NCBI RefSeq assembly: GCF_001482305.1
Contig: NZ_LOHP01000043.1
Coordinates: 62,001 to 126,000, forward strand
Length of the DNA stretch: 64,000 bases
Direction of reading: 5' to 3'
DNA from: Leucobacter sp. G161
GTDB lineage: Bacteria; Actinomycetota; Actinomycetes; Actinomycetales; Microbacteriaceae
The stretch's first letter is position 1. Each line of letters opens with the position of its first letter. A program made the position numbers and the translations under genes. A model generated the notes under the pieces. The model was not told where the DNA came from. It saw nothing but the letters and a program-made list of their open reading frames with translations, and made no database searches. Positions 20,111 through 59,579 of this stretch are shown here, one piece after another.

Positions 20111-20937
20111 GCAGCCTCGATGAACTCTTCCGGGAGGACCAGCCCGCACCCGACGTGACTGACAGCCCCGCCCCGGAGGGCGCGCCAGGCGACCCTGAGG
20201 AGGAGCCCACGCTCGCGGAGGCAGCGACGCCGCAGCGGCCCGACATCGGCGATCCCCTGTATCCGGGGCCCATCGCGGAGCTCACCAGCGTGACCCGGTT
20301 TTTTCCCGGGCCACCCCCGGTGAACGCGTTGCGCGGCATCGACCTCACGGTCGAGCGCGGGGACTACCTGGCGATCATCGGACCGTCGGGCTCGGGCAAG
20401 TCGACAATGCTCAACACGCTCGGACTCCTCGATCGACCAAGCACGGGAACGTTCCTCTTTGAGGGCATCGATGTTGCTGGGCTGAGCGAAGACGAGCGTG
20501 CGGGGCTGCGCGCCCGCGCCATCGGCTTCGTGTTCCAGTCCTTCCACCTCATGCCGACACGCACGGTGCTCGAGAACGTCATGCTCGCGGGCACCTACGC
20601 CGGGCTGAGCAGGGACGAGCGCGAACCGCTCGCACGACGCGCGCTCGAGCGCGTCGGTTTGTCCCACCGCATTGACTTCACACCGAACACGCTCTCGGGA
20701 GGTGAGCGGCAACGCGTCGCGATCGCCCGTGCGGTGTGCACGTCTCCGCGGCTGCTACTCGCCGACGAACCCACCGGCAACCTCGAGCGCGCAAATTCCG
20801 AGTCGGTCATGCGCCTCTTTGGCGAGCTGTCTGCCGACGGCCTCACGATTGTCATGATCACCCACGACGAGGCGGTCGCTCAGGCGGCCGGCCGACGGGT
20901 GCGGATCAACGACGGAGAGCTCACGGTGCTCGAATGA
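20107..20937 (+). CDS. MacB-type ABC transporter ATP-binding protein
   Basis: 276 residues. About 60 residues of acidic, proline-rich N-terminal extension precede a complete ABC domain: Walker [10 protein letters not shown] (about 95-103), Q-loop [10 protein letters not shown], signature [14 protein letters not shown], Walker [11 protein letters not shown] and H-loop MITHD. This matches the LolD/MacB-type ATPases that pair with FtsX-like permeases. It starts at GTG overlapping the adaptor stop and ends with an ATGA overlap into the permease, so the three are translationally coupled. Confidence 0.94.
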
Positions 20938-22286
20938 CGTCCGATACGAAGCGGCCCTCGCGACGCTCCAGAAAACGCGAGACAGCTGCTGACGACGCCC
21001 CCAAGCAGCCTGGCAGGCTCCGCTCGTTCTTCACGCGAAAGCGGAAGGCCGACCCCTCCGGCCCGAAGGTCGCACCCGCAACGGTGTCGTGGCGCGATCT
21101 CTTCCGAGAGTCGCTCGAGGGTGTCGGGGCGCGCCCGTCGCGGCTACTCATCACGCTCGCGGGCACCGTCCTCGGTATCGCTTCGCTCGTCGCGACGATC
21201 GGCTTCGCCCAGACCGCTGGCGGGCAGATCGCGCAGCAGTTCGATGCGCTCGCGGCGACACGCGTCACGGTCGAGCCCGGCACGGCGAAGGCTGCTGGCG
21301 GCAAGGAACGCTCAACCTCTCGGCTGCCCTGGGACGCGGTGGATCGGGTGAGCACTCTTGCTGGCGTCGAGCACTCCGCCCTCTACGCAAAAGTGGAGAG
21401 CGTCAAGGACGTGACCACGGTGCAGGTCAATGATCCTTCCGCAGCGGCGAAGGCTCCCCCGCCCGTCGTGGCGGCCTCACCCGAGCTGCTCGACACCGTG
21501 GCTGGCACGATCGGCATGGGTCGGTTCTTCGACGCCGGACACGACGAACGGCGTGACCGTGTCGTCGTGCTCGGCAAGGAGGCCGCGGAGCGCCTCGGCG
21601 TGAACCGCGTCACCGGCCAGCCCGCGATCTTTATCGAGGATCGCGCGTACACCGTCATCGGCATCCTAGATAAGGTGGGCACCCGCAACACGCTGCTCGA
21701 CTCCGTCATCGTTCCGGTGAGCACGGCGCGCGGCGAACTCGGGTTGACCGCTGCCACCAGTCTCGATATCCGTATTGCGGTCGGGGCCGGCGAGGTGGTT
21801 GCCAGGCAGGCGCCAATCGCGCTCGACCCGAACGCCCCAGACGCGTTCAAGGTCGCGGCGCCGTCGAACTCAAACTCGCTCCGCGAGGGCGTGGAGGCAG
21901 ATGTCAACGTGCTGTTCCTCGCGATCGGTATTGTTGCGCTCATCGGCGGCGGCATTGGCATCGCCAGCGTGACCCTCATGTCGGTGAGTGAACGCAGGGG
22001 CGAAATCGGTCTCCGGAGAGCCCTCGGCGCGCGCACACGCGACATCGCGAGACAGTTCATGATCGAGTCCGTCGCGACCGGCGTGCTCGGCGGCCTCATG
22101 GGTGTTGTGGTCGGACTGTTTGCGCTCATCGGGGTGTGTCTCGTGCAGCAGTGGACGCCCGTGATCGCTCCATGGGCGGCACCGCTCGGTGTGGCCGTTG
22201 GCGCGCTCGTCGGCCTCGCCGCTGGCAGCTATCCCGCGGTGAAGGCGGCACGCATCGACCCGGTCGACGCGCTCCGCGACGCCTAG
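20934..22286 (+). CDS. FtsX/MacB-type ABC transporter permease
   Basis: 450 residues. A basic cytoplasmic tail of about 60 residues is followed by a first membrane segment (LLITLAGTVLGIASLVATIG). A large outside domain of about 230 residues follows, then three C-terminal membrane segments with the family motif SVTLMSVSERRGEIGLRRAL between them. This topology is that of MacB/FtsX permeases working by mechanotransmission, not classic import. The ATG overlaps the ATPase stop. Together with the upstream adaptor and lipoproteins it completes a five-gene export or envelope-stress unit. The substrate is unknown. Confidence 0.93.
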   Translation: MTSDTKRPSRRSRKRETAADDAPKQPGRLRSFFTRKRKADPSGPKVAPATVSWRDLFRESLEGVGARPSRLLITLAGTVLGIASLVATIGFAQTAGGQIAQQFDALAATRVTVEPGTAKAAGGKERSTSRLPWDAVDRVSTLAGVEHSALYAKVESVKDVTTVQVNDPSAAAKAPPPVVAASPELLDTVAGTIGMGRFFDAGHDERRDRVVVLGKEAAERLGVNRVTGQPAIFIEDRAYTVIGILDKVGTRNTLLDSVIVPVSTARGELGLTAATSLDIRIAVGAGEVVARQAPIALDPNAPDAFKVAAPSNSNSLREGVEADVNVLFLAIGIVALIGGGIGIASVTLMSVSERRGEIGLRRALGARTRDIARQFMIESVATGVLGGLMGVVVGLFALIGVCLVQQWTPVIAPWAAPLGVAVGALVGLAAGSYPAVKAARIDPVDALRDA

Positions 22287-22328
22287 CTCCTCCCGCTCAC
22301 CCGCCGAGCCAAGCCGGCACAACCGACT

Positions 22329-22480
22329 CGCAATTGAGGGTGTTCCGGCAACCCTGAAGAGCGCTCAGCAGACATGTCCTCAGCGAGGTCAGGATCGTTC
22401 GGCAGCGGAAACATCCTGACCTCGCCGAAAACATGTCTGTTCGGCGCTCGTGGTCGCTGAGGTCCACACCCTCAACTGCG
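22329..22480. repeat. 152-bp near-perfect inverted-repeat element
   Basis: Left arm 22359-22394 and right arm 22414-22449 (36 nt each) are complementary at about 29 of 36 positions, around a 19-nt loop. Outer arms 22329-22343 and 22466-22480 (cgcaattgagggtgt and acaccctcaactgcg) pair at 14 of 15. The core carries cctcagcgaggtcagga, also found at 31745-31805 and 59442-59492. It lies between convergent genes and could act as a bidirectional terminator, but its size and recurrence look like a miniature repeat element. Confidence 0.8.
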
Positions 22481-22488
22481 AAGCGCCG

Positions 22489-23538
22489 TTACTCCCCGTA
22501 GCGCTGGCGTCGGGTCGCATCCTGAATCTCACCGACGAGTTCCTCGATGACGTCTTCCAGGAAGACGGCTCCGAGCTCGGTCCCTGCCCCGTCGACGATG
22601 CGTGCCATGTGGATCCCGCGCCGCTGCATGTGCGACAGCACGTCCTCGAGTTCCGAGTCGACGCGCATGGTCACCATTTCGCGCACCCGCTTGGGCGGAA
22701 TCGGCTCGTCAATCCACCGCTCACTGATGCGCACCAGGTCCTTGATGTGCGCGTACCCAACGAGGCCGCCAGCGGCGTCCACAATCGGATAGCGCGAGAA
22801 CCCGTGTCGCGCGACGGCGGCTTCGACATCCGCTGGCGTCGCCCCAGGCTGCAGCACCACGAGGCGGTCAACGGGCACGAGCACGTCACCGGCGCGCTTC
22901 GAGGTGAACTCGAACGCCGCGGTGAGTGCACCACTCCGATCCTCAAGCACACCCTCGCGGCGCGAGTGGTCGACGATGCTCGCGACCTCCTCGAGCGTGA
23001 AGGTGCTCGTGGTCTCTGATTTCGGCTCGACCTTGAACATGCGCAGCACGCCGTTCGCGATCGCATTCAGCGCCGTGATGATTGGGCGCAGCAGCCGCGA
23101 GATCGCGACGAGCGGCGGCGCGAGCAGCAGCACGGCACGATCGGGCAGCGTGAAGGCGGCGTTCTTCGGCACCATCTCGCCGAACACGACGTGCAGGTAG
23201 GTCACGATGAGCAGGGTGAGTGCGAAGGCGCTCACACTCGCTACTTCGACGCTCATGCCGGTCCATTCGAGTGGTCCGGCGAGCAGGTGGTGGATCGCGG
23301 GTTCGGAGACGTTCAGGATCACGAGCGAGCACACGGTGATGCCGAGCTGACAGGTCGCGAGCATCAGGGTCGCGTGTTCCATCGCGAACAGCGCGGTCTT
23401 CGCGCGCTTCGACCCCGCTTCGGCGCGTGGTTCGATCTGCGAGCGTCGCGCTGAGCTCACGGCGAACTCCGCAGCAACAAAGAAGGCGTTGGCTGCGAGC
23501 AGCAGCACGAGCCAGACAATTCCAAGCCAGTCGCTCAC
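22489..23538 (-). CDS. CNNM/CBS-domain membrane protein (HlyC/CorC family), short form
   Basis: 349 residues. An N-terminal DUF21/CNNM transmembrane domain has VWLVLLLAANAFFVAAEFAV, then ATCQLGITVCSL and HVVFGEMVPKN. A CBS pair follows (about 205-335; SRYPIVDAAGGLVGYAHIKDL). It ends after the second CBS unit and lacks the C-terminal CorC_HlyC domain present in its neighbour. It begins with GTG, overlapping the end of the upstream paralogue by 4 bp. CNNM proteins are linked to magnesium or cobalt efflux and CBS pairs bind adenosyl nucleotides; that function here is by family only. Confidence 0.92.
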   Translation of the reverse strand: MSDWLGIVWLVLLLAANAFFVAAEFAVSSARRSQIEPRAEAGSKRAKTALFAMEHATLMLATCQLGITVCSLVILNVSEPAIHHLLAGPLEWTGMSVEVASVSAFALTLLIVTYLHVVFGEMVPKNAAFTLPDRAVLLLAPPLVAISRLLRPIITALNAIANGVLRMFKVEPKSETTSTFTLEEVASIVDHSRREGVLEDRSGALTAAFEFTSKRAGDVLVPVDRLVVLQPGATPADVEAAVARHGFSRYPIVDAAGGLVGYAHIKDLVRISERWIDEPIPPKRVREMVTMRVDSELEDVLSHMQRRGIHMARIVDGAGTELGAVFLEDVIEELVGEIQDATRRQRYGE

Positions 23539-24878: not shown

Positions 24879-25019
24879 ACGAGAACCGTATTACATAAGG
24901 AGAACCGCGCAAATGCGCGGCAAATACTCGGAGGGTCTGCGGGTCTTCGGGGGTCTGCTTCCATGATTGCTCCACTTTATCAGCGAGAATGCCGACTTCG
25001 GCGCGGGAAAGGCGTAGGC

Positions 25020-25027
25020 TTATACAG
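25020..25027 (+). promoter_or_regulatory. -10 element of the kgd promoter
   Basis: tTATACAg is close to consensus and would place the start of transcription near 25033. From there the preferred TTG start is about 88 nt downstream, while an in-frame ATG at 25034 would be leaderless. Confidence 0.5.
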
Positions 25028-25120
25028 TGTGCGATGGCGAACCGTTATCCAGGGTCGCGCCGCCGGATACAGCGGCACTTCTTGCACGAGAAAACAACAC
25101 TCACGGGAGAGGAAGTCGCT

Positions 25121-28100
25121 TTGTCAGAGCGCTCGGAAACCACCTCACAGGACGGTTCCGCAGAAGATTTTGGTGCGAATGCTTGGCTCGTCGATGAGAT
25201 GTACAAACAGTACGTCGTCGACAAGAACTCGGTAGACCCGGCTTGGTGGCCGACTCTCGAGAAATTTGCAGCGTCGCAATCCGCAGTTCAATCGCAGACG
25301 GCTCCCGCGCCGCCGGCAGCCTCAGCGACATCGGCACCGCCGCCGACGGTCCCCGCTGCCCAGGCCGCACACGCCGCTCCGAGCACCGGGGCCGCGACGC
25401 AGCCCGCTCGGACCACGAACGTGGCTCCCCGCACCGCGCCCATCCCGGCCGATGCTCCTCGCAAGCCTTCGACGACCGCGGCTGCCGCGGAAGACGACAC
25501 TGCGCAAGACCAGTTCACGGTCTTCAAGGGCATGGCTCGCACGCTGTCGAAGAACATGGACGCGAGCCTCACCGTGCCGACCGCCACCAGCGTGCGCACG
25601 GTCCCGGCGAAGCTCCTCATCGACAACCGAATCGTGATCAACAGCCACCTCCGGCGCAGCCGCGGCGGCAAGGTGTCGTTCACGCACCTCATCGGTTGGG
25701 CGCTCATCCAGGCGCTCAAGGCGCACCCGGCGCAGAACGTCGCATACACCGAGGTTGACGGCAAGCCCGGCGTCGTTGCTCCGGCGCACGTCGGTCTCGG
25801 TATCGCGATCGACCTGCCCAAGCCTGACGGTACCCGCTCGCTCATGGTGCCCTCGATCAAGTACGCGGAGACGCTCGATTTCAACGAGTACCTGGCCGCG
25901 TACGAAGACCTCGTGAAGCGTGCGCGTGACAACAAGCTCACCGCGACCGATTTCCAGGGAACGACGCTGTCGCTCACGAACCCCGGCGGCATCGGCACCG
26001 TGCACTCGGTGCCGCGCCTCATGAACGGCCAGGGCTCGATCATCGGCGCTGGCGCGCTCGAGTACCCGGCAGAGTTCCAGGGCGCATCCGAGGAAGTCCT
26101 GTCGAACCTCGGCATCTCGAAGACAATCACGCTCACCAGCACCTACGATCACCGCGTGATCCAGGGCGCTGGCTCGGGCGAGTTCCTGAAGGCTGTCCAC
26201 GAGCGCCTCGCTGGTGGCCACAACTTCTACGAAGAGGTCTTCGCGGCGCTCCGTATCCCGTACAAGCCGATCCAGTGGGCGCAGGACATCCACGTTGACG
26301 TCTCGGGCGCGATTGGCAAGTCTGCCCGCGTGCAGGAGCTCATCAACGCGTTCCGCGTGCGCGGCCACCTCATGGCCGACGTCGATCCGCTCGAGTACGT
26401 GCAGCGTACGCATCCCGACCTCGAGATCGAAAGCCACGGGCTGACGTTCTGGGATCTCGACCGCGAGTTCGTCACGGGCGGCATCGGCGGCAAGCCGACG
26501 ATGAAGCTCCGCGACATCCTCGGTGTGCTCCGCGACACGTACTGCCGCAAGATCGGCGTTGAGTACATGCACATCCAGGATCCCGAAGAGCGGATCTGGC
26601 TGCGCAACCAGCTTGAGGTGCCCTACGCGAAGCCGAGCTCCGAGGAGCAGGTCCGTATCCTGGAGAAGCTCAACGAGGCCGAGGCCTTTGAGACCTTCCT
26701 GCAGACGAAGTACGTCGGTCAGAAGCGCTTCAGCCTGGAGGGCGGCGAGTCCGTCATCCCGTTGCTCGACGCGATGCTCATCGATGCCGCAGAGGACGGC
26801 GTCGACTCCGTCGACATCGGCATGGCACACCGCGGCCGCCTGAACGTGCTCTCGAACATCGCGGGCAAGACCTACGGGCAGATCTTCCGCGAGTTCGAGG
26901 GAACCGCGCAGAAGACAGGCTCGGGCGACGTGAAGTACCACCTTGGCACCTCCGGAGTCTTCACCGCTCCGAACGGTACGCAGGTGCCGATCCACCTCGC
27001 AGCGAACCCGTCGCACCTGGAGACCGTCAACGGCGTCCTCGAGGGCATCGTGCGCGCGAAGCAGGATCTCAAGCCGATCGGCTCGTTCACCACGCTCCCG
27101 ATCCTCATTCACGGCGACGCCGCGATGGCCGGCCAGGGTGTCGTCTACGAGACGCTGCAGATGTCGCAGCTGCGCGGCTACCGCACCGGCGGCACCGTGC
27201 ACATCATCATCAACAACCAGGTCGGCTTCACGACGCTGCCGCTCGACTCGCGCACGGGTATCTACTCGACCGACGTCGGCAAGGTTGTGCAGGCACCGAT
27301 CTTCCATGTGAACGGCGACGACCCCGAGTCGGTCGTGCGCGTGGCGCAGCTCGCATATGAGTTCCGCCAGAAGTTCCACAAGGACGTCATCGTCGATCTC
27401 ATCTGCTACCGCCGTCGCGGTCACAATGAGGGCGACGACCCGTCGATGACCCAGCCGCTCATGACTGACCTCATCGAGGCGAAGCGCTCAACGCGTCGTC
27501 TGTACTCCGAGGGACTCGTCGGACGCGGTGACATCACGCAGGAGCAGTACGAGACCGCGAAGCAGGACTTCCAGAGCCGCCTCGAGCAGGCGTTCATGGA
27601 AACCCATGCCGCGCAGACCGGCTCGATCCCCGTGATCGACCAGTCGGGTATCGCCGAGCGCGAGGAGCCGGGCCAGATCTCTGGCGAGGTGCTCGACACG
27701 GCCGTGCCGACCGAGGTCATTCACCGCATCGGTGACGCGCACGCGAACACCCCTGAGGGCTTCACTGTGCACCGCAAGCTGCAGCAGCTGCTCGCGAAGC
27801 GTAAGGACATGAGCCGTTCCGGCGAGATCGACTGGGGCTTTGGCGAGCTGCTCGCACTCGGCTCGCTGCTGATGGAGGGCACTCCGGTGCGCTTCGCCGG
27901 CCAGGACGCTCGTCGCGGCACCTTCACCCAGCGCCACGCGGTCTTCCACGATCGCGAGAACGGTCAGGAATGGCTGCCACTGCTGAACCTCTCCGAGGAT
28001 CAGGCACGCTTCTGGATCTACGATTCGCTGCTCAGCGAGTACGCGGCGCTCGCGTTCGAGTACGGTTACTCCCTGCAGCGGGAAGACGCGCTCGTGCTCT

Positions 28101-28852
28101 GGGAGGCGCAGTTCGGTGACTTCGTGAACACGGCACAGGCCGTGATCGACGAGTACATCGCCGCCGCCGAGCAGAAGTGGGGCCAGCAGGCGTCGCTCGT
28201 GATGCTGCTCCCCCACGGCTACGAGGGCCAGGGCCCCGACCACTCGTCGGGCCGCATTGAGCGCTTCCTGCAGCTGTGCGCGGAGGACAACATGATTGTC
28301 ACTCGCCCGTCCACGCCGGCGAACTACTTCCATCTGCTCCGCCGCCAGGCGTACGCTCGCCCGCGCAAGCCGCTGGTGGTCTTCACGCCCAAGTCGATGC
28401 TCCGCCTGCGCGGCGCGACTTCGAGCGTCGAGGACTTCACGACCGGGCATTTCCAGCCCGTGATCGATGACCCGCATGTCACCGACCGGAACGCCGTGCA
28501 GCGTGTGATCCTCACCTCGGGGAAGGTCTACTACGACCTCGAGGGTGCCCTCACGAAGACGCCGGATCCCCGTGTCTCGGTGGTCCGCGTCGAGCAGTAC
28601 TACCCGATGCCGGTCATCGACCTCACCCGCATCATCGCGAGCTACCCGAATGCGGAGCTCGTGTGGGTGCAGGACGAGCCTGAGAACCAGGGCGCATGGC
28701 CCTTCATCTCGCTCGTGCTGGCGAAGCACCTCGCGAACGACCGCATCCGTGTGGTTTCGCGTGCGGCTTCCGCGGCTCCGTCGACGGGTTCGGCGAAGGT
28801 ACACGCAGTCGAGCAGGAAGCGCTCCTCGCAGAAGCGCTCCGCTTCGACTAA
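25121..28852 (+). CDS. kgd: multifunctional 2-oxoglutarate decarboxylase/dehydrogenase E1 with succinyltransferase domain
   Basis: 1243 residues. Actinobacteria fuse an E2-like acyltransferase domain to the thiamine-diphosphate E1 of the 2-oxoglutarate dehydrogenase. The order here is the N-terminal anchor NAWLVDEMYKQYVVD, a Pro/Ala linker (about 50-120), an acyltransferase domain with LTNPGGIGTVHSVPRL and catalytic TYDHRVIQGA, then E1 with MAHRGRLNVLSNI and IINNQVGFTT. I chose TTG at 25121: GAGAGGA lies 7 nt before it, and known family members start just before the NAWLVDEM block. ATG 25034 is the alternative, adding 29 residues. Agmatine deiminase follows after 24 bp. Confidence 0.95.
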   Translation: MSERSETTSQDGSAEDFGANAWLVDEMYKQYVVDKNSVDPAWWPTLEKFAASQSAVQSQTAPAPPAASATSAPPPTVPAAQAAHAAPSTGAATQPARTTNVAPRTAPIPADAPRKPSTTAAAAEDDTAQDQFTVFKGMARTLSKNMDASLTVPTATSVRTVPAKLLIDNRIVINSHLRRSRGGKVSFTHLIGWALIQALKAHPAQNVAYTEVDGKPGVVAPAHVGLGIAIDLPKPDGTRSLMVPSIKYAETLDFNEYLAAYEDLVKRARDNKLTATDFQGTTLSLTNPGGIGTVHSVPRLMNGQGSIIGAGALEYPAEFQGASEEVLSNLGISKTITLTSTYDHRVIQGAGSGEFLKAVHERLAGGHNFYEEVFAALRIPYKPIQWAQDIHVDVSGAIGKSARVQELINAFRVRGHLMADVDPLEYVQRTHPDLEIESHGLTFWDLDREFVTGGIGGKPTMKLRDILGVLRDTYCRKIGVEYMHIQDPEERIWLRNQLEVPYAKPSSEEQVRILEKLNEAEAFETFLQTKYVGQKRFSLEGGESVIPLLDAMLIDAAEDGVDSVDIGMAHRGRLNVLSNIAGKTYGQIFREFEGTAQKTGSGDVKYHLGTSGVFTAPNGTQVPIHLAANPSHLETVNGVLEGIVRAKQDLKPIGSFTTLPILIHGDAAMAGQGVVYETLQMSQLRGYRTGGTVHIIINNQVGFTTLPLDSRTGIYSTDVGKVVQAPIFHVNGDDPESVVRVAQLAYEFRQKFHKDVIVDLICYRRRGHNEGDDPSMTQPLMTDLIEAKRSTRRLYSEGLVGRGDITQEQYETAKQDFQSRLEQAFMETHAAQTGSIPVIDQSGIAEREEPGQISGEVLDTAVPTEVIHRIGDAHANTPEGFTVHRKLQQLLAKRKDMSRSGEIDWGFGELLALGSLLMEGTPVRFAGQDARRGTFTQRHAVFHDRENGQEWLPLLNLSEDQARFWIYDSLLSEYAALAFEYGYSLQREDALVLWEAQFGDFVNTAQAVIDEYIAAAEQKWGQQASLVMLLPHGYEGQGPDHSSGRIERFLQLCAEDNMIVTRPSTPANYFHLLRRQAYARPRKPLVVFTPKSMLRLRGATSSVEDFTTGHFQPVIDDPHVTDRNAVQRVILTSGKVYYDLEGALTKTPDPRVSVVRVEQYYPMPVIDLTRIIASYPNAELVWVQDEPENQGAWPFISLVLAKHLANDRIRVVSRAASAAPSTGSAKVHAVEQEALLAEALRFD

Positions 28853-31624: not shown

Positions 31625-31744
31625 CGTTAGCGCTGTGCGGGGCCTGCCAGGGCGCTACACCCCTCCCCTTTTGCAGGTGCAGACCCTCAGCGAGTACAAA
31701 CGCTGACCCGCCTCAATCTCAGCTAGCAGAAACGCCGACCTGCC

Positions 31745-31805
31745 ATGACCTCAGCGAGGTCATGATTCTTGTGCTGCAAATCACTCCTGACTTCGCTGAG
31801 GTCAT
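31745..31805. repeat. dispersed palindromic repeat, copy 2
   Basis: Arms 31745-31765 and 31785-31805 (21 nt) pair with two mismatches around a 19-nt loop. The left arm itself contains the palindrome tgacctc-agc-gaggtca. The core and loop length match copies at 22374-22434 and 59442-59492. Confidence 0.75.
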
Positions 31806-31899
31806 GTCTTGTGAGCGATTCAGGCTGGCGCCTCCTCGCCCTGGGCGTGTGCGGCCGCGGGGAGAAGGAGCCGTCCTGATTACAGTCAAGGTTCCGCCA

Positions 31900-59294: not shown

Positions 59295-59441
59295 GTTTCC
59301 AGTCTGACAGCCCGAGGCTTGTCTGTCAGCACCCGCGTTCGGCGGCGCGGCGAAGTGGGCACGCAGCCCGTGCCCGGTGCCACATGCCTGCACGCGCAGA
59401 TCCCAGGCCCTCCTCTCCTTGTTTGCGCTGAGTCGATATCG

Positions 59442-59492
59442 CCTCAGCGAGGTCAGGGGCTTTCGGCCGCACATGAGACATGACCTGACGGG
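59442..59492. repeat. dispersed palindromic repeat, copy 3
   Basis: cctcagcgaggtcaggg (59442-59458), a 19-nt loop containing tttcggccgc, and a partly complementary right arm acatgacctgacggg (59478-59492). It matches the copies near 22.4 and 31.8 kb and runs straight into the 19-bp tandem array. Confidence 0.6.
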
Positions 59493-59579
59493 ACATTCAT
59501 GACCTGGCGGGTCAAGCACGAGCTGGCGGGTCAAGCACGAACTGACGGGTCAAGCACGAGCCGGCGGGACAGGCGCGCA
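59485..59579. repeat. 19-bp tandem repeat
   Basis: Five 19-bp units starting at 59485, 59504, 59523, 59542 and 59561; the best is ctggcgggtcaagcacgag. Identity is highest in the three central units. The first overlaps the right arm of the palindromic repeat. Confidence 0.8.

Follow-up and report, generated by a model that had tools for sequence, protein, structure and literature searches.

The long inverted repeat that separates a permease gene from a CNNM/CBS-domain gene in the window (the 64,000-nucleotide stretch of Leucobacter sp. G161 DNA that was analysed) is probably an old, non-autonomous MITE of the ISL3 type, about 166 bp long, with a giant hairpin inside it. Taken as a whole, the observations are best explained in this way. 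The element belongs to a dispersed repeat family, family A, the mobility of which is well supported. The original prediction had singled out a 152-bp inverted repeat between two convergent genes and suspected an element beyond a mere terminator. This suspicion agrees with the many copies in the host genome, with target-site duplications around three other copies, and with the lack of the family sequence at the corresponding junction of sister genomes. The same prediction had named the contrary case, a single-copy sequence that is conserved in all relatives as a terminator only and has no related elements; we found a multi-copy family instead. The features of the element and its surroundings are listed in Table 1.

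Table 1. Positions in the window of the element, its parts, further family A copies and the neighbouring genes
Feature	Position	Strand	Basis or remark
Entire element (family A copy of the class with TIRs)	22322..22487	.	TIR homology at both ends; multi-copy
Left terminal inverted repeat (TIR), degenerate	22322..22343	+	15/22 match to ISL3-type TIR
Right TIR	22466..22487	-	20/22 match to left TIR of the ISL3 element in L009
Hairpin core common to the family, 89 nt	22360..22448	.	model R1: 87 bits on +, 78 on -
Left hairpin arm	22360..22395	+	
Right hairpin arm	22413..22448	+	
GCTGAGGT, repeats the hairpin-arm motif, adjoins inner side of right TIR	22456..22463	+	sequence
Second family A copy in the window	31731..31819	-	R1; no recognisable right TIR
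Third family A copy in the window, decayed	59424..59511	+	R1, 25.9 bits
Left neighbour, MacB_PCD/FtsX permease	20934..22286	+	start codon chosen within a longer ORF from 20736
Right neighbour, CNNM/CBS-domain protein	22489..23538	-	stop codon 22489-22491, 1 bp from the element

A giant hairpin in many copies

Counted directly on the sequence, the two inner arms form 30 of 36 possible Watson-Crick pairs, or 32 of 36 if G-T pairs are included, and the outer arms (22329-22343 and 22466-22480) form 14 of 15. These counts reproduce the predicted 36-nt arms of about 80% complementarity and the predicted 15-nt outer arms with a single mismatch. The loop had been given as 19 nt and measures 17 nt. The repeat is real over its predicted extent (22329-22480), but homology of the TIRs puts the ends of the element slightly beyond it, at 22322 and 22487. 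In the family consensus each arm is itself nearly palindromic, with a right arm of the form CATGACCTC-GCT-GAGGTCATG.

Folding of the RNA from 22300 to 22510, a check proposed with the prediction, gave a structure dominated by a single long hairpin. The folding energy of -113.2 kcal/mol compares with a mean of -73.7 for shuffled sequences (z -9.2), and none of 200 shuffles folded as well. The 89-nt core folded alone stands out from its shuffles on both strands (z -10.7 on the plus strand, -9.4 on the minus strand). The claim that the hairpin is far larger than other terminators in this DNA also holds: it is the largest of 18 palindromes over threshold in 264 kb of its own genome, a sample made up of ten 20-kb stretches and the window. 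One of the other 17 palindromes is a further copy of family A, and the remaining 16 span 32-61 nt. A search of Rfam with the window hairpin returned nothing above the gathering score; the six matches below it, all to microRNA models, were rejected as noise from the long stem.

The host genome (G000; 3.55 Mb in 109 contigs) queried with positions 22310-22500 contains many dispersed partial matches, mostly 70-84% identical. A covariance model of the 89-nt core (R1), built on an alignment of 37 copies (A2), identified at least 41 distinct places in this genome at E-values up to 0.01. Since all 81 candidates that were scored did match, this count is a lower bound. Our working set comprises 42 copies from this genome, including the decayed one in the window; alignment A2 contains 37 of them, without the decayed L041 and without L139-L142, which were found later. 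Across 54 genomes of the genus, R1 matches occur in six: in the host, in G056 (at least 13 places), and in smaller number and with weaker scores in G044, G066, G014 and G024. A pattern scan of genome contigs gave 51 stretches, of which two, both in one Leucobacter MAG, were taken further. Family A had no match in the plasmid and phage collections that were searched. Titles and opening lines of abstracts in an open-access library, which misses most subscription papers, likewise yielded no account of repeats of this kind in Leucobacter.

A motif that is specific to a lineage and forms inverted pairs where genes end could in principle serve in DNA uptake or protein binding, having accumulated throughout the genome and become paired near gene ends by chance. 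The uptake sequences of Neisseria and Haemophilus form inverted pairs at such sites. An exact match to the 10-mer of the arm, however, is found only five times in 264 kb (about 0.5 expected), and three of these occurrences belong to the three family copies in the window. Unpaired copies of the motif are therefore not abundant, and we regard this origin as very improbable, the least probable of those considered here.

The alignment of family members provides some information on how the hairpin has been maintained. In A2, 81.3% of the cells pair, compared with 79.1% after shuffling, and 17 of the 36 pairs contain changes on both sides. Sixty cells are changed on both sides; the shuffled mean is 44.4, none of 500 shuffles reached 60, and versions slid out of register gave 14-27. 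The predicted compensated differences between the arms, read there as a sign of a preserved RNA or cruciform structure, therefore do exceed the shuffled expectation, but the excess is modest, and relatedness among the copies can inflate it. Pairwise identity is 0.92 and 0.88 in the two stems and 0.61 in the loop (23 TIR-bearing rows of A2), and 0.72 in the TIR (22 copies). By this measure the stems are the best-kept part of the element. Correction of the palindrome during replication could partly keep the arms complementary without any RNA function.

Terminal inverted repeats and target-site duplications

The connection to ISL3 transposons comes from a short match outside the genus. The right end of the window element corresponds to the TIR of an ISL3 transposon at locus L009, in a genome from another family (G039); a second short match to the window element occurs in the relative G011 (L010). 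The L009 element carries GGCTCTTCACAGTTGAGGGTGT at one end and its inverse with two mismatches at the other, is bordered by TCTATAAC outside both ends, and encodes between the TIRs a transposase that matches PF01610. We scanned 21 ISL3 loci, namely L009 and 20 from the genus, some of which overlap. This type of TIR is present with at most six mismatches at 17 of them and absent at L129, L130, L135 and L137. Locus L120 has both TIRs and an exact 8-bp duplication, CGTAAACC, so that two ISL3 loci (L009 and L120) combine both TIRs with identical 8-bp duplications.

Across 55 family A copies, 42 from the host and 13 from G056, the match to the right TIR is bimodal: 26 copies have 2-7 mismatches of 22, and 29 have at least nine. 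A control pattern never had fewer than eight mismatches. All but one of the 26 right-TIR copies are from the host, where 25 of 42 copies thus carry an ISL3-type TIR to the right of the hairpin. Left TIRs are oppositely oriented and vary in distance and quality. The mismatches of 22 amount to two in L025, four and seven in the first and second copies of L027, five in L142, six in L030, seven in the window copy, and 11 in L033, whose first eight positions are exact; L011 and L012 fit with a gap. The window copy thereby combines a weak left TIR with a right TIR that has only two mismatches of 22.

Each of the 26 copies with a right TIR was scanned for an 8-bp repeat beyond a left end that resembles a TIR. 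Three copies are flanked by duplications with 7/8 identity, two of them in L027 (AGATCAGG/AGATGAGG and CGGTAACT/CGGTATCT) and one in L033 (AGTTTGCG/AGTGTGCG); none of 650 cross pairings reached seven. The flanks of L142, which has a good left TIR, match at 6/8, a level of five or six that is also seen in 85 of the 650 cross pairings. In eight copies for which a left end was chosen, flanks match at 7, 7, 7, 3, 1, 5, 5 and 2 of 8 positions, and cross pairings of these eight have a mean of 2.1 and a maximum of 4 (n = 56). L025 has the best left TIR and yet its flanks match at only 3/8; those of L030 match at 1/8. A target-site duplication, which the prediction had proposed to look for, is thus found around three other copies but not around the window copy, whose flanks match at only 2/8. 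Because this copy has no duplication and a weak left TIR, the case for its membership is made by its right TIR, its core and its outer arms. The TIR-bearing copies with duplications are ISL3-type MITEs.

Where both ends are present, copy length varies from about 166 to 520 bp. The longest ones, the first copy in L027 (about 395 bp), L142 (421 bp) and L011 (520 bp), share some sequence on the left, and the left part of L011 is strongly common to one other place only. The longest open reading frame that overlaps the long copy L142 has 108 codons for amino acids. The shorter copies look like internal deletions of longer ones. PF01610 (DDE_Tnp_ISL3) has no match in the 109-contig assembly of the host and is present in 11 of the 54 genus genomes. 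With no ISL3 transposase in the host and the hairpin in none of the 21 partly overlapping ISL3 loci, the parent element was not found.

Several further features of the sequence next to the hairpin were recorded. The 14 nt inside the TIR have a mean identity of 65% among 22 TIR-bearing copies. Many family A copies, for example L030, L139, L142 and L143, have to the left of the hairpin a stretch like CTCAAGGCGAAG-CACGCC that is similar to the right TIR and is oriented like it, not inverted. In the TIR-bearing copy of G056 (L143/L061), the stretch from TIR to hairpin is tandemly duplicated and repeats the arm motif. Short tandem units similar to GCTGAGCGC lie between hairpin and right TIR at positions 1090-1140 of L033 and in the right flank of L019; they look as if a subterminal motif had multiplied.

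Paired near-palindromic units also characterise REP and BIME repeats, and family A might accordingly be viewed as a REP/BIME-like repeat, with two palindromic units in inverted order that owe their spread to a tyrosine transposase of the RAYT type. We consider this very unlikely, even though family A resembles these repeats in being multi-copy, lineage-specific, intergenic and biased to the 3' ends of genes. A search for Y1_Tnp (PF01797), which was positive in 5 of 14 genomes as a control, gave no match in the host, and no RAYT was found. ISL3-type TIRs border 25 of the 42 host copies, three of which also have 8-bp duplications; to our knowledge, RAYT-type transposition is not expected to make target duplications, and these weaken the REP/BIME reading for the TIR-bearing class. 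One study describes REPs as 20-40 bp long, compared with about 90 nt for family A, and places them predominantly between unidirectional and convergent genes (PMC3733652).

Family A is like known MITEs in its short length, the lack of a transposase-sized gene, the TIRs shared with ISL3, the 8-bp duplications in three copies, the size variants and the many copies. It differs from them in four respects: the hairpin of about 90 nt surpasses the TIRs in conservation, the search for an autonomous partner in the genome found none, copies are enriched between convergent genes, and a class without TIRs has the same hairpin. On its own, the element in the window belongs to a new family of MITEs, set apart by its conserved giant hairpin, its position bias and the existence of differently spelled sister families.

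Position between convergent genes

As predicted, the window element lies between two convergent genes (Table 1). Elsewhere, the window contains an open reading frame of 1287 amino acids (24989-28852), which looks like a multifunctional 2-oxoglutarate dehydrogenase/decarboxylase. Judged with a simple codon-usage gene caller trained on the window, 25 of the 42 host copies lie between convergent genes, 13 between tandem and two between divergent genes, with two more at contig ends. Convergent pairs thus make up 25 of the 40 resolvable copies, against 34 of 227 control gene pairs in the 264-kb sample (P about 1e-11). The 13 copies in G056 comprise five convergent and four tandem positions and four at contig ends.

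This position, together with a hairpin of the same shape on both strands between convergent stop codons, is a feature shared with bidirectional intrinsic or Rho-linked terminators and with stem-loops that protect 3' ends. A scan for T-tract terminators from 22200 to 22600, allowing loops of 3-8 nt and demanding five T in eight positions, found none. Because of this negative scan, we think that a Rho-linked or exonuclease-stop role is likelier than classical intrinsic termination. Rho sites are characterised by C-rich sequence upstream. The C-rich flanks that would suit Rho mark the TIR-less class of family A, on both strands, and not copies like the one in the window. Where two genes converge, the hairpin probably acts as a two-way stop signal for transcription.

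Family A differs from ordinary terminators in being a dispersed repeat, with transposon ends on many copies and a window stem far longer than the other terminator-like palindromes in 264 kb. These differences bear on whether a large bidirectional terminator simply evolved in place, its apparent copies being the product of convergent evolution on a common motif. The convergent position would suit such an origin, and so would the general preference of bacterial stem-loops for convergent over divergent spacers, as described in one study (PMC1590033). The comparison with sister genomes cuts both ways. In G020 and G006, where the CNNM protein is 93-95% identical, the same convergent junction spans 150 and 243 bp and also has a hairpin (L235, L236). 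This hairpin is weaker, with about 65 nt and moderate support from shuffling (z -2.5; one shuffle in 200 did as well), and is unrelated to family A. It occurs at one place each in G020 and G006 and was not found in the other genomes among the 54 searched. The family sequence itself is missing from the junction in these sisters, as the prediction had proposed to check. Its absence there, the lack of a T-tract, the target duplications and an identity across the family that extends to loop and TIR all argue against evolution in place, which we consider highly doubtful. For the TIR-bearing class the duplications refute it, unless they arose by chance.

The remaining relatives and the other two window copies were compared in the same way. 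G003 has a different sequence at the junction, and in G044 the contig stops 164 bp past the gene, the element being absent from that part. At the places corresponding to 31.8 kb and 59.4 kb, the family hairpin is absent from G020, G006 and G003, and R1 has no match anywhere in these three genomes. At 59.4 kb the host spacer exceeds that of each of the three by about 300 bp. Exact insertion borders are unreadable because the spacers have diverged. As a separate observation, a GGAGAGGGAGAGCTC-type tandem repeat adjoins the junction hairpin in G006.

TIR-less copies, sister families and the order of events

Two further hairpin families occur in the genus. G066 has its own family B, in at least 16 places among the matches listed (16 candidates were scored), with arms that carry CATGAACTCGTCGAGAGGCCAT; matches to it in eight other genomes are short and mostly lie over the C-rich flank. 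G014 and G055 have family C in common, each in at least 16 places among the matches listed (16 scored; L203-L232). Its members are about 100 nt long and consist of three nested stems, CAACCCCGCGAAA, TTTCTGCCGAGAT and an inner TTTCATACGTATGAAA. The arms of B and C differ from those of A in sequence but agree in shape, size and position. Nine of 17 family B centres are convergent, four tandem and two divergent, while two fall inside called genes and are probably false. In family C, 13 of 18 places are convergent, these 18 being the places with settable ends out of 32. Even with the most favourable of many settings, target duplications for B and C exceeded those in cross pairings only slightly, which is unconvincing. 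What looks like one junction in two Leucobacter species is occupied by a double palindrome in G066 (L106) and by one perfect palindrome in G024 (L102); the neighbouring coding sequence is similar and the hairpins differ. Two side observations concern family B: its loci (L188-L202) often have a C-rich left side and a G-rich right side, and in G066 a long GGCCCGGC-type tandem array lies beside the hairpin of L191.

Flank composition divides these groups. C exceeds G upstream on both strands at 30 of 34 sides of the TIR-less host copies, at 24 of 25 sides in G056 (its one TIR-bearing copy included) and at 29 of 34 sides in family B, or 27 of 30 once the two probably false centres are removed. The control 3' sides gave 18 of 36 and 33 of 75. 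The TIR-bearing host copies (28 of 50 sides) and family C (18 of 36) are without this bias.

On a tree of the 55 cores, the TIR label needs ten changes, compared with about 18.4 after shuffling, and none of 500 shuffles was as low. Since the label changes less often than when shuffled, the TIR-bearing copies cluster on the tree. With midpoint rooting, which serves for drawing only, the deepest branches are TIR-less and mostly from G056; the tree is based on 93 columns and leaves 32 of its 52 inner branches open. Several TIR-less copies inside the TIR lineage look like decayed TIR copies.

This last observation raises the question of whether all TIR-less copies are ISL3 MITEs that have lost their ends, in which case all copies would form a single family with a common history, and no resident hairpin would have been picked up. 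Remnants in the right flanks of some TIR-less copies (L024, L037 and the second copy in L017) are in keeping with such a loss, as are the ten label changes themselves. Other TIR-less copies instead show the C-rich upstream flanks on both strands, both in the host and in G056. The latter genome has 12 TIR-less copies and one with a TIR, and its branch is the deepest under the midpoint root. Family B, in which that TIR is not in view, has the same flank pattern. On balance, we find a single history by loss of ends unlikely, though considerably less so than the other alternatives.

The order of events that we favour starts from a resident stock of TIR-less, two-way hairpins at 3' ends. One lineage of these hairpins would have been picked up by an ISL3-type element and would then have multiplied in the host genome, moved by an ISL3 transposase that was supplied in the past. 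Such a pick-up is likely, not shown. The hairpin may form or protect mRNA 3' ends that arrive from both sides; copies between convergent genes would thereby be tolerated or favoured, and their arms would stay complementary.

A broader proposal embraces all three families. Families A, B and C may represent lineage-specific giant two-way hairpins at convergent ends that are replaced or rewritten between lineages with their position kept, can be spread by ISL3-type elements, and so act as mobile, homogenised transcription boundaries. We put this forward tentatively, as a possibility that is rather less probable than its opposite. If it is true, convergent genes in this genus are separated by boundary hairpins that are mobile and specific to each lineage, and junctions that hold different hairpins in different species constitute a natural experiment. 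One could then test whether transcription boundaries are spread by transposons, by what means long palindromes stay intact, and how families of palindromic repeats turn uniform within a lineage without a RAYT.
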